NCBI GenBank assembly: GCA_003235475.1
Contig: QJWC01000087.1
Coordinates: forward strand, 1 to 64,000
Length of the DNA stretch: 64,000 nucleotides
Direction: 5' to 3'
Origin: Acidimicrobiia bacterium
GTDB taxonomy: Bacteria; Actinomycetota; Acidimicrobiia; Spongiisociales; UBA5794
The position numbers and the translations under genes are program-made. The notes below the pieces were generated by a model. That model was given only the letters and a program-made list of their open reading frames with translations, did not search any database and was not told the origin of the DNA. Positions 17,822 through 45,487 of this stretch are shown here, one piece after another; the first letter of the stretch is position 1, and each line of letters opens with the position of its first letter.

Positions 17822-19182
17822 CCACCGGCGCCCTGTGGGCCGACGAAGCGGTGCAGCTCACGATCGACCTGATCCGCAATGCGTGCGTCAACGACGGCAC
17901 GCCCGACTCGGGGAACGAGATCAGATCGGTTCGGACCGTCCAGGAATACCTCGGGGACACAGGAACGGTGATCGAGCCCGCGCCGGGGAGGGGCTCGGTC
18001 ATCCTGAGGATTCCGGGGACCGACCCGGATGCACCGACCGTCCTCATGCTCCCGCACCTCGACGTCGTTCCCGCGAGCCCTCATGACTGGACCCACCCGC
18101 CCTTCGAAGGCAAGGTCGTCGACGGCATGATCTGGGGGAGAGGCGCGGTCGACATGCTCAACGTGACCGGTGCGATGGTCGCGGTGTTCAAGGCCTTGCG
18201 CGATGGCGATCTGGCGCCGCCTGCTGGCGACGTCATCCTCGCTTGCGTCGCAGACGAGGAGGCCGGGGGCTCTCTCGGCGCAGCACACCTCGCGGAGCAC
18301 TATTGGGATCTCGTCGAATGCGATGTGGTCCTCACCGAGGTGGCGGGACCGAATCTTCGCGGCAGCCATGGAAGCGCCATCCCTGTCACCGTCGCTGAGA
18401 AGGGCCCGGCGTGGCGCCACGTGGTGGCGCACGGCGTCGCTGGCCACGGGAGCCAGCCATACGCGCGGTCGAACGCCGTCCTCTCGCTTTCTTCAGCGTT
18501 CGCAGACATCGGGTCAGTGCCCCAACCCGTCCACCTCTCGGACGAGTGGCTCGCGACCGTCCCGCATCTTCCCATCGACACTGCGACCCGGGCGCGTCTC
18601 ACACACGAAGAGACCGTGGATGTCGCGATCGACGACATCGCGGAGGACGATCCGACCCTTGCACGGTGGATCCACGCGTGCACCCACCTGACCTTCTCCC
18701 CGAACGTCATCCACGGGGGAGCGAAGTCCAACGTCGTTGCGGATGCCGCCGAGGGCGACATCGACGTACGGATGCTTCCCGGCCAGGATGCGACCGACGT
18801 GAACGACCACCTCCGCAAGGTGCTCGGGCCTGCAAGATTCGATGAACTCGACTTCGTGCCAGTGCTCGAAATGGAGGCCAATGCATCGCCCACCGGCGGC
18901 GCGATGTGGGAGGCGCTCGGCGACGCCGCAGAGGAGCTGACGGGCAGCCGGACCCTTGCACCGTTGATCACCCCCGTATCCACCGACGCGAGGTTCTTCA
19001 GGACACGAGGCGTGCCCGCATACGGTGCGGGGCTGTTCGATGACAGGGTGAGCTTCGCCGAGATGCTTGCCATGTTCCACGGTGCCGACGAGCGGGTGTC
19101 GGTCGAATCGGTACGTCGGACGGCAGCGTTCATCGGTGCGGCCATCGGGGCGTACGGGCGTCGAACCAGCCGGCACACCTAG
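17818..19182 (+). CDS. M20 family metallopeptidase
   Basis: LMLPHLDVVPA, WGRGAVDMLN, ADEEAGG. Confidence 0.9.
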   Translation: MTTGALWADEAVQLTIDLIRNACVNDGTPDSGNEIRSVRTVQEYLGDTGTVIEPAPGRGSVILRIPGTDPDAPTVLMLPHLDVVPASPHDWTHPPFEGKVVDGMIWGRGAVDMLNVTGAMVAVFKALRDGDLAPPAGDVILACVADEEAGGSLGAAHLAEHYWDLVECDVVLTEVAGPNLRGSHGSAIPVTVAEKGPAWRHVVAHGVAGHGSQPYARSNAVLSLSSAFADIGSVPQPVHLSDEWLATVPHLPIDTATRARLTHEETVDVAIDDIAEDDPTLARWIHACTHLTFSPNVIHGGAKSNVVADAAEGDIDVRMLPGQDATDVNDHLRKVLGPARFDELDFVPVLEMEANASPTGGAMWEALGDAAEELTGSRTLAPLITPVSTDARFFRTRGVPAYGAGLFDDRVSFAEMLAMFHGADERVSVESVRRTAAFIGAAIGAYGRRTSRHT

Positions 19183-19203: not shown

Positions 19204-19365
19204 ATGGAACCCATGGATGCCACCAGACAGGACGAGCAACCCGTCGACAAGCAGGCTGCCCTCGAGGCAGCAGACCCGGCCGATGCGCCGGACGTCGCAG
19301 AAGAACTCGCGAGAACGCTCCAGGACGATCTCGACAGGGTCGCGGGTTCGGAGACGGAAGCCTGA
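19204..19365 (+). CDS. 53-aa acidic protein upstream of tlyA, unknown function
   Basis: MEPMDATRQDEQPVDKQAALEAADPADAPDVAEELARTLQDDLDRVAGSETEA; ATG with GGAGG-like upstream; stop overlaps the inferred tlyA start. Confidence 0.5.
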   Translation: MEPMDATRQDEQPVDKQAALEAADPADAPDVAEELARTLQDDLDRVAGSETEA

Positions 19366-20150
19366 CACGTCGCAGGCTCGACGTCGAGCTCGTCAGGCGG
19401 AAGCTCGTCAGTTCCCGGGCTGAGGCACAGAAGGCAATCGACGCGGGACTCGTGCGGGTCTCATCGACCGCGGTTCCGAAGAGTTCGACGCTCGTCGCGG
19501 ACTCGGATGCGATTCACCTCCAGGCACCGCCCGAGCCGTTCGTTGCACGGTCAGGACGCAAGCTTGCGGGAGCGTTGGATCACTTCGGCGTTGACCCGAA
19601 GGGTCGGCATTGTCTCGACGTCGGGGCCTCCACCGGTGGCTTCACCGACTGTCTCCTCCAACGGGGCGCTGCCGACGTCGTCGCGCTCGACGTTGGCTAC
19701 GGCCAACTCCACTGGCGAATACGGTCAGACCCTCGGGTGACCGTCGTCGAGCGCACGAACTTTCGGCTGGTGGATCCTGCCACCGTCGGGGCCCCGTTCG
19801 ACCTCGTCGTCGCAGATGTCTCCTTCATCTCACTCGGCCTCCTCGCAAGGCAGTTCGAGCGGGTGGGCTCCGCCCAGGCGTCGTGGGTGCTCCTCATAAA
19901 GCCGCAGTTCGAGGCAGGGAGGGAAGATGTCGGCCGCGGCGGGCTCGTGAAGGACGAAAGCACCCATCGCCGCGTCCTCAGGCGTGTGGTCGACGAGTTC
20001 CACGACGTTGGCCTGGAATGTCAGGAGCTCGTTGTATCGTCGATCACCGGCACCAAAGGCAACACCGAGTTCGTCGGCTGGTTCACACGATCCGGGCCTG
20101 GCATCGGCGACGAGGCAATCGACATCGCAGTGAGGAACGCACACATATGA
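19362..20150 (+). CDS. tlyA: TlyA family rRNA (cytidine-2'-O)-methyltransferase/hemolysin, inferred CTG start
   Basis: S4 domain TRRRLDVELVRRKLVSSRAEAQKAIDAGLVRVS lies upstream of the GTG at 19452 used in the ORF track; SAM motif LDVGASTGGFTDCLLQRGA. Confidence 0.85.
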   Translation: MTRRRLDVELVRRKLVSSRAEAQKAIDAGLVRVSSTAVPKSSTLVADSDAIHLQAPPEPFVARSGRKLAGALDHFGVDPKGRHCLDVGASTGGFTDCLLQRGAADVVALDVGYGQLHWRIRSDPRVTVVERTNFRLVDPATVGAPFDLVVADVSFISLGLLARQFERVGSAQASWVLLIKPQFEAGREDVGRGGLVKDESTHRRVLRRVVDEFHDVGLECQELVVSSITGTKGNTEFVGWFTRSGPGIGDEAIDIAVRNAHI

Positions 20151-26104: not shown

Positions 26105-26881
26105 ATGACATTCGAAGTCCGCACGAAGGTGTTCGAGGGGCCCCTCGACCTCCTGCTCCAGCTCATCACGAGCCACCAACTCGCGATCACGGAGCTGTCG
26201 TTGCTCGGGATCGTGAACGAGTACCTCGCGTTCCTCGACGATGTCAAGGAGCTCGACCTCGAGGTCACGAGCGAGTTCCTCCTCATCGCGGCGACGCTGA
26301 TCCAACTCAAGGCTCGGCATCTCCTTCCAGACGACGAACCGATGGATCTCGACGAGGAGCTTGCGCTTGCCGAAGAGCGGGACCGCCTTCTTTCGCGGCT
26401 CCTCGCGTGCCTCACCTTCAAGGATGTCGCTGCGGTCCTGGAACACCGGATGGACGCAGCTGCAAGGCGATACGGGCGCACGGCTGGCATACCGGTCGAG
26501 GTCACGCCCCAGGCGCCAGAGGTCGTGCTTCCCGTGGATGGCGTGGGCCTCGCGCGCGTCGCCGAGCTCGCATTCTCCACGCCCATCACCGAGCCGGACC
26601 TCGATCACCTCGACCTCAATCTCCCGTCGATACAGGACGCCATCGTGGACCTCCAGGGACGGATGGCCGAATCGATCGTCGCCGACTTCGACGATCTCGT
26701 ATCCGGCTTCGATCGCGAAGCAGAGGTCGTTGCGTACTTTCTCGCGCTCCTCGAACTCGCGAGATGGGGGATCGTCCGTGTCTCGCAAGAGACGATGTTC
26801 GAGGGGATTCGGGTCGCCTACGACCGCGCCGCCGCGGAGGCGAACTTCGAAGACTTCGTGGCAGGCGGGGACGCCGCATGA
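26105..26881 (+). CDS. scpA: Segregation and condensation protein ScpA
   Basis: FEVRTKVFEGPLDLLLQLI; followed by scpB. Confidence 0.93.
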   Translation: MTFEVRTKVFEGPLDLLLQLITSHQLAITELSLLGIVNEYLAFLDDVKELDLEVTSEFLLIAATLIQLKARHLLPDDEPMDLDEELALAEERDRLLSRLLACLTFKDVAAVLEHRMDAAARRYGRTAGIPVEVTPQAPEVVLPVDGVGLARVAELAFSTPITEPDLDHLDLNLPSIQDAIVDLQGRMAESIVADFDDLVSGFDREAEVVAYFLALLELARWGIVRVSQETMFEGIRVAYDRAAAEANFEDFVAGGDAA

Positions 26882-27456
26882 ACGAACTCGAACGAACCAT
26901 CGAGGCCATCTTGTTCGTGTCGGACCGACCGGTCACGACCGCCGAACTCGCCGAGGTCACCGAAACGTCCCTCGCAGGCGTCGAGGAAGCACTCGAGGCC
27001 ATCCGCGTCGAGCTCGACGATGGGCACGGGATCCAGCTCGACGCGGTCGCCGGCGGTTGGCGCCTCTACACGAAACCCGAAATGATGGACTATCTCGAGC
27101 GGTTCGCTTCGACCGATCGATCCCGTCAACTCTCGAAGGCGGCAGTGGAGACGCTCGCCGTCGTGGCATACAAACAGCCCGTCTCGAGGGGGCAGGTCAC
27201 CGAGATCAGGGGCGTGGATTCTGAGCAGGCGCTCAAGACCCTCGAGCGCCGCGGAATGGTTGCAGAGGTCGGACGCGCCCCGGGCCCCGGGCAGGCGGTG
27301 CTCTACGGGACGACCGAGCTCTTCCTCGAAAAGGTCGGCGTCGATTCCCTCGCGGACCTTCCTCCGCTTGCTGATCATGTGCCACCGGCCCAGATCATGG
27401 ATACGCTCGAGATGCCGTTGCGTTCGGAGGCATCATCGAACGACTCAATCGACTGA
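26878..27456 (+). CDS. scpB: Segregation and condensation protein ScpB
   Basis: ATGA overlap; TIEAILFVSDRPVTTAELAEV, QLSKAAVETLAVVAYKQPVSRGQVTEIRGVDSEQAL. Confidence 0.93.
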   Translation: MNELERTIEAILFVSDRPVTTAELAEVTETSLAGVEEALEAIRVELDDGHGIQLDAVAGGWRLYTKPEMMDYLERFASTDRSRQLSKAAVETLAVVAYKQPVSRGQVTEIRGVDSEQALKTLERRGMVAEVGRAPGPGQAVLYGTTELFLEKVGVDSLADLPPLADHVPPAQIMDTLEMPLRSEASSNDSID

Positions 27457-28157
27457 TCGCCCAGACCGGGTACGCGTCGCGCCGGAAGGCGGATGTCCTG
27501 ATCGGCCAGGGACGCGTCACCGTTGACGGGGATCCTGCGTCGATAGGCCAGAGGATCGACCTTTCGGCCGTCGTTGCTGTCGACGGCGTGCGCCTGCCGA
27601 TCGATCCCGACCTCGTCTCGTATCTGGTCTACAAGCCCGTCGGGGTCGTCACCACCATGGACGACCCCCAGGGGAGGCCCACGGTCGTCGATCTCGTTCC
27701 GCCGGAACCGGTGACGAAACCTGTCGGGAGGCTCGACATCCACTCCGAGGGGCTCCTGATCATGACGAACGATGGGTACCTTGCCGACGTGTGCCTCCAT
27801 CCGCGTTATCAGGTTCCGAAGACGTACCACGTCCTCAGCACGCAGCGTGTGACCGATGCGCATGTTCGGTCGCTGAGCGAGGGCATCGACCTCGACGATG
27901 GCCTCGCGCGCGCCGAATCGGCGAGGGTGCTCGACCGAAGCGGTGACCGCACCATCGTGGAACTCGTCCTCACAGAAGGCCGAAAACGCGAGGTTCGGCG
28001 GATGTTCGAAGCGATCGGAGTCGATGTGTCGCGCCTCGTCAGGACATCGATCGGCCCGGTCTCGGACAGGACGCTGCAGCCGGGCGGGTTCCGACCGCTG
28101 ACCTTCGACGAGACACGGGGACTGCTCGCATACGCAAGGGACGCCGACCGTGGCTGA
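27435..28157 (+). CDS. rluB: rRNA pseudouridine synthase (RluB family), non-canonical start (ATC 27435 or CTG 27453)
   Basis: S4 domain ERLNRLIAQTGYASRRKADVLIGQGRVTVDG precedes first GTG (27588); GRLDIHSEGLLIMTNDG catalytic motif. Confidence 0.82.
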   Translation: MERLNRLIAQTGYASRRKADVLIGQGRVTVDGDPASIGQRIDLSAVVAVDGVRLPIDPDLVSYLVYKPVGVVTTMDDPQGRPTVVDLVPPEPVTKPVGRLDIHSEGLLIMTNDGYLADVCLHPRYQVPKTYHVLSTQRVTDAHVRSLSEGIDLDDGLARAESARVLDRSGDRTIVELVLTEGRKREVRRMFEAIGVDVSRLVRTSIGPVSDRTLQPGGFRPLTFDETRGLLAYARDADRG

Positions 28158-44555: not shown

Positions 44556-45050
44556 ATGACGGACAACATCGTGGATACAAATCTCGGATTCGGGTCGCCG
44601 CAGGTGTGCAAAGTGGTGGGTATCAGCTACCGCCAGCTCGACTACTGGGACCGCACCGGCCTGCTCGGCCCATCGATGAAGGCGGCCGCAGGTTCGGGTA
44701 CGCAGCGGAAGTACTCATTCCAGGACATCGTCACCCTCCGCGTCGTGAAGGGCCTCCTCGACGGCGGGACCACCCTCCAGAAGATCAGGCAGGCATTCGA
44801 CCACCTCGAAGAGGAGATCGGCGACGACTGGCGGTTCCAGGACATCACCCTCATCGGTGACGGGACGACCGTCTACGCCGCACGAAGCATGGAGGAGGTC
44901 GTCGACCTCTTCCGGCGCGGCCAGGGTGTGTTCGGCATCGCAGTACAGCCCGTGGTCGATGAGGTTCGCGGCGAGATCCATAGACTGTATCCGGATCAAG
45001 CGGACCTGGCCCCCGCTGCAGAGACCCTCTCGGAAGCGACTGCCACCTGA
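44556..45050 (+). CDS. MerR family transcriptional regulator (second)
   Basis: FGSPQVCKVVGISYRQLDYWDRTGLLGPS HTH. Confidence 0.9.
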   Translation: MTDNIVDTNLGFGSPQVCKVVGISYRQLDYWDRTGLLGPSMKAAAGSGTQRKYSFQDIVTLRVVKGLLDGGTTLQKIRQAFDHLEEEIGDDWRFQDITLIGDGTTVYAARSMEEVVDLFRRGQGVFGIAVQPVVDEVRGEIHRLYPDQADLAPAAETLSEATAT

Positions 45051-45487
45051 CCCACGACGACCTCTTCGCCCCGGCGCCAGCCGACACCACCGACTTCGCA
45101 CACAACAGCGAACGGGAGTTCGCGAGGCTCCTCGATTTCTACGGGATCGAATGGGAGTACGAGCCGAAGGCGTTCGTGGTCGAGTGGGACGAGAACGGCG
45201 AGCCGGCCAAGCACTTCCGTCCTGACTTCTACCTCCCCGCCGAGGATGTGTTCATCGAGATCACCACGATGAGCCAGAAGCTCGTCACGAAGAAGAACCG
45301 GAAGGTCAAGCGGTTGCGAGAGCTCTATCCGGACGTCGAGTGCCGCGTGTTCTACCAGCGCGACTACCTGCACCTCCTCGTCAAGTATGGCCTCGAGGAA
45401 CCAGACGCCGAGATCGACACACCTGCGCCGACCCGGATACCCGGCCCACCCGACGTGACCGACCTGGGACTCGCTGCGGAAGCGTGA
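45047..45487 (+). CDS. TnsA-like/PD-(D/E)XK-type nuclease domain protein, inferred CTG start
   Basis: NSEREFARLLDFYGIEWEYEPKAFVVEW...FRPDFYLPAEDVFIEITT; no ATG/GTG/TTG between the in-frame stop at 44981 and GTG 45176; CTG overlaps MerR stop. Confidence 0.68.
   Translation: MTHDDLFAPAPADTTDFAHNSEREFARLLDFYGIEWEYEPKAFVVEWDENGEPAKHFRPDFYLPAEDVFIEITTMSQKLVTKKNRKVKRLRELYPDVECRVFYQRDYLHLLVKYGLEEPDAEIDTPAPTRIPGPPDVTDLGLAAEA

Follow-up and report, generated by a model that had tools for sequence, protein, structure and literature searches.

In an uncultured bacterium of the order Spongiisociales (Acidimicrobiia), the gene for a TlyA-family rRNA methyltransferase very probably starts at a CUG codon that overlaps the stop codon of the preceding open reading frame (ORF). 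The gene, tlyA, lies on the forward strand of the first 64,000 nucleotides (nt) of contig QJWC01000087.1 (assembly GCA_003235475.1), the stretch analysed here and called the window, which is part of a 2.14-Mb draft genome of 117 contigs. CUG is generally regarded as almost absent from bacterial start codons and is very weak in Escherichia coli and mycobacterial reporters. It is by far the weakest NTG codon: its initiation reaches 0.86% of that of AUG in E. coli and it makes up 0.024% of bacterial starts (PMC11497404). Switches from AUG to CUG are very rare in reconstructed bacterial histories, with 2 in 61,358 (PMC5622118). A non-canonical start codon places tlyA among cases of a known kind, and the new part is the CUG inside a stop/start overlap. 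Also new are how deeply a housekeeping gene has conserved a CUG start, the contrast that this makes with other genes of the genome, and a second such start, which reaches other families of the class. A search of the literature gave no report of CTG starts in Acidimicrobiia.

The proposed start lies in a CTGA (19362..19365, forward strand, as are all window features located below), where CTG at 19362-19364 overlaps the TGA (19363-19365) that ends a small upstream ORF of 53 amino acids (19204..19365). A Shine-Dalgarno (SD)-like GGAG at 19350..19353 precedes the CTG with an 8-nt spacer. The initial annotation had described this arrangement, and both the sequence and its translation agree with it. 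It had also reported the frame to be free of ATG, GTG and TTG back to about 19200. Read further back, to an in-frame stop at 19041, the tlyA frame stays open (from 19044) and holds none of these codons until the GTG at 19452..19454. Translation from 19362 to 20150 yields a protein of 262 amino acids that begins LTRRRLDVELVRRKLVSS..., whereas a start at the GTG would cost it the greater part of S4. By Pfam the S4 domain (E = 2.4e-7) spans about 19371-19463, largely 5' of 19452 as the initial annotation had claimed, and FtsJ spans about 19539-20084.

The start region was aligned in 67 genomes of the order and in a further 19 genomes of the same class from outside it. Within the order the aligned tlyA start is CTG in 48 genomes, GTG in 7, ATG in 4 and TTG in 1; another 4 have an ATG one or two codons downstream, and 3 are unclear. 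Of the 48 CTG starts, 47 overlap a TGA, and the canonical starts of the order usually sit in the same overlap, as ATGA, GTGA or TTGA. Outside the order, 18 of the 19 genomes have ATG, GTG or TTG at this position and one has CTG. In another class, three genomes, all from one family, again have CTG at the start of tlyA. A tree of 93 TlyA proteins requires at least 10 changes between CTG and canonical codons; the start codon thus switches on the tree, yet CTG persists through most families of the order.

Across the 48 genomes with CTG, conservation of the reading frame is absent before this codon and sharp after it. Counting the CTG as codon 0 (48 of 48), variability peaks at codon -1 (entropy of 3.5 bits), while codons 4-6 are invariant, with the leucine at codon 5 being encoded by CTC in 38 genomes, CTG in 5, CTT in 3 and TTG in 2. 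An SD-like 4-mer stands at the proper distance in 40 of the 48, compared with 3-17 at shifted positions. Given this abrupt onset of conservation and the frequent SD-like motif in front of the CTG, we regard CUG 19362 as very probably the start codon of tlyA. The upstream ORF is kept as well: most relatives have a similar ORF, of about 44-80 amino acids, that terminates at this overlap, and these ORFs form a conserved small-protein family with the motif DPADAP..AEELA, although the product of the 53-amino-acid ORF has no Pfam match. The proposal of a tlyA start within CTGA is strongly supported by the CTG of 48 relatives, by ATG, GTG or TTG in nearly all others, by the usual SD-like motif and by the conserved small ORF.

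By family model and domain content the gene encodes a TlyA-family rRNA (cytidine-2'-O)-methyltransferase, with methylation of 16S and/or 23S rRNA cytidines being its predicted activity. TIGR00478 is matched with 222.9 bits (cut-off 185.8) over profile positions 1-228, a full-length family match; the stricter NCBI equivalog model NF049952 gives 179, under its cut-off of 250. Both Pfam domains exceed their gathering scores, and S4 is complete only with a start 5' of 19452. The K, D, K and E residues expected of such methyltransferases are visible in GRKL, VVADVSF, IKPQFE and NTEFVGW. The homologous TlyA of Mycobacterium tuberculosis (PDB 7s0s), likewise composed of S4 plus FtsJ domains, aligns with residues 3-257 of the window protein, which differs in beginning at CUG and in scoring below the NF049952 cut-off.

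A second CTGA start was found at 45047, where the initial annotation had seen the arrangement recur. Here the TGA of a MerR-family regulator gene (44556..45050) overlaps the CTG of a conserved nuclease-like gene (45047..45487) related to T7 endonuclease I (family match to the T7 endonuclease I profile, 3cae, E = 6.2e-6). This CTGA is kept in 30 of 31 sequences from the order, even where flanking residues differ and lengths are shifted, which bears out the earlier observation. In other families of the class the nuclease start is often non-canonical too: with individual starts assigned by our own reading, it is ATC after an SD in about 6 of 20 and CTG in about 4, and others have ATG or TTG. A non-canonical nuclease start, CUG or AUC, is seen in many families of the class (L346-L365). 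Single-sequence structure prediction of the nuclease reached a mean predicted local distance difference test (pLDDT) score of only 38. In Thermomicrobium roseum, a homologue is covered by a feature annotated hpt.

Start codons were surveyed in 643 kb of stretches of this genome, window included, with about 606 genes. The base before TGA (n=396) is C in 172 cases, G in 102, A in 93 and T in 29. If CUG were as good a start as GUG, this preference for C should make CTGA starts more numerous than GTGA starts. Instead there are 66 ATGA and 47 GTGA junctions, and CTGA serves as a start by homology in two, those of tlyA and the nuclease, which are also the only convincing CTG starts among the genes surveyed. 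The genome thus generally avoids CUG and retains it in particular genes, and we rejected genome-wide use of CUG. Other CTGA junctions (window 40053, L186:16480, L193:6557, L329:13917 and L334:16480) have good canonical starts nearby. A special initiator tRNA with a CAG anticodon was sought and not found, and the leucine tRNA set looks ordinary. Relatives have a normal initiator tRNA, with a CAT anticodon (CAU in RNA): GGGCTCATAACCC.

The initial annotation had suggested a further possible CTGA start at 27453, formed by the TGA of scpB (26407..27456), for the following gene, a pseudouridine synthase matched by RluB-type models. This suggestion failed, since the codon at that place is CTG, CTC, TTA or GTC in relatives and is an internal rluB codon. 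The start of rluB (27435..28157) is more likely the non-canonical ATC at 27435, which lies 4 nt past a GGAGG (27426..27430). In most of 30 relatives from the order an ATC immediately precedes the GAR-CG codons, and four have GTG or ATG at a neighbouring place; outside the order, rluB starts are mostly canonical. A coding-potential survey, which is blind to odd starts with a canonical codon within 8 codons, flags tlyA, rluB and the nuclease here; in another family, for which a complete genome was used, it again picks out the nuclease and rluB. The infC gene starts behind an SD at ATC (ATT in L313 and L316) in this genome and its relatives, 20 genomes of the order in all (L322, L306-L325). For aceE the start is ATA behind GGAGAG here (L332 10132; G000:C110:30132), ATC in G013 (L387), and ATG, GTG or TTG in other relatives; this sporadic ATA/ATC case was rejected as a conserved odd start. 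A phosphotransferase-like ORF (IKDYYELTEAGRRGRLKKV...) on the minus strand at L342 3038 has a seeming ATC start, with 31 codons lacking a canonical codon.

We propose that ribosomes finishing the 53-codon upstream ORF would stop at the overlapping UGA, where the GGAG 8 nt upstream could hold them at the CUG. Reinitiation on CUG with the ordinary formyl-methionine (fMet) initiator tRNA would then produce fMet-TRRRLDVELV... with the S4 domain intact. Judged by the anatomy of the locus, such coupled termination and reinitiation at CTGA is likely. The codon might be kept precisely because it is weak, holding TlyA, a catalytic rRNA-modifying enzyme, at a low level tied to the upstream gene; it would probably also be subject to discrimination by initiation factor 3 (IF3), like infC and Streptomyces sigR. 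That CUG is retained for weak or IF3-sensitive expression, through selection for weakness and a role of IF3, has in our estimate an even chance of being right. As a whole, reinitiation on a weak, probably IF3-sensitive CUG is the explanation that we consider likely to hold, with initiation, coupling and IF3 control all inferred from sequence. If so, a CUG kept order-wide in the overlap of a housekeeping gene would show that selection can retain weak starts, coupled to reinitiation.

This proposal has precedents in better-characterised systems. IF3 represses non-canonical starts, including the GUC (GTC) of Streptomyces sigR and the start of infC, which is ATC in Streptomyces (PMC5472188). Like tlyA, the IF3-autoregulated infC (AUU or AUC) is a housekeeping gene of translation whose non-canonical start is conserved and has an SD, but its codon is not CUG, it has no overlap of the CTGA type, and its control by IF3 is proven in other bacteria, whereas that of tlyA is predicted. 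The sigR start is likewise rare, conserved in an actinobacterial lineage and missed by annotation; it differs in codon, gene and extended SD, and its effect was shown experimentally (PMC5472188), whereas that of the tlyA start is predicted. With both, tlyA shares a rare codon kept in a lineage (48/67) together with an SD (40/48). More generally, tlyA resembles other genes with non-canonical starts in having no usable ATG, GTG or TTG and in homology that begins at the rare codon. Overlaps of 4 nt support termination-reinitiation (PMC6728339, PMC10666635), and the ATGA/TGATG pairs described there are, like tlyA and its neighbour, co-directed genes with a 4-nt overlap and an SD inside the upstream gene. 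Those pairs were described with ATG, and CTGA is not mentioned in the text of PMC6728339; the tlyA locus has a CTGA overlap, co-directed genes and a conserved upstream ORF.

Several observations weigh against a CUG start maintained for reinitiation. Roughly one genome in four of the order has a canonical tlyA codon, so a weak start is not required everywhere. The T and G of the CTG are also fixed by the overlapping stop, which leaves only the C as free evidence, and C is the favoured base before TGA in this genome. M. smegmatis reporters showed no enrichment of CTG as a start (PMC4633059). An initiator tRNA gene was not recognised among the 43 tRNA matches of this incomplete assembly; this absence is probably an assembly gap, because close relatives have the gene. 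A canonical start further upstream in relatives would have told against the CTG; of the 48 genomes with CTG, 45 have none, and three (L025, L119 and L120) carry an upstream canonical codon. Alternatively, ribosomes of this order may simply tolerate CUG, in which case the codon would drift neutrally, without regulatory meaning, and tlyA would still start there. We consider this unlikely, while giving it some weight: odd starts do occur in other genes (the ATA of aceE here, its ATC in G013 and the ATC candidate at L342), and the tlyA codon does switch to canonical codons on the tree. General tolerance fits poorly, however, with two supported CTG starts in about 606 genes next to 47 GTGA junctions in a genome so rich in C before TGA, and with the normal initiator anticodon of relatives.

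The remaining alternatives would remove the CUG start altogether. A -1 frameshift at the CTGA, leading from the upstream ORF into a TlyA fusion protein, would suit an overlap of stop and downstream frame in the right register and the conservation of both ORFs. It is nevertheless highly improbable, as no slippery heptamer is shared among the freely varying sequences before the CTGA, many relatives have ATG, GTG or TTG at the same point, and the SD lies at initiation distance. A true start at GTG 19452, giving a protein without most of the S4 domain, is the outcome of ORF listing restricted to ATG, GTG and TTG. We find it scarcely credible, given that the S4 residues upstream of it are highly conserved in the 48 genomes and lie where Pfam places the domain, and that the first downstream canonical codon is scattered among relatives, from position 5 to 78. 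Finally, a draft in 117 contigs might harbour a sequencing or assembly error that destroyed a canonical start, an objection anticipated by the initial annotation; the recurrence of the same codon at the same aligned position in 48 separate genomes refutes it and leaves it practically no chance. Reinitiation on a conserved CUG remains our preferred explanation for tlyA.

Looking further, infC (AUC), tlyA (CUG), rluB (AUC) and the T7-endonuclease-I-like nuclease might compose a small conserved Acidimicrobiia regulon of weak, IF3-discriminated starts, a tentative idea that we think could be correct but would not expect to be. Were it true, IF3 activity or the quality of initiation would set rRNA modification together with the nuclease. 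Gene finders limited to ATG, GTG and TTG likely truncate or mis-start tlyA, rluB, infC and the nuclease in this uncultured group. Elsewhere in the surveyed stretches, at L197 10292-10340, acyl-CoA-dehydrogenase-like coding sequence (VINGTKAFITNSG) stands right behind an in-frame TAG, possibly as a pseudogene or a frameshift.
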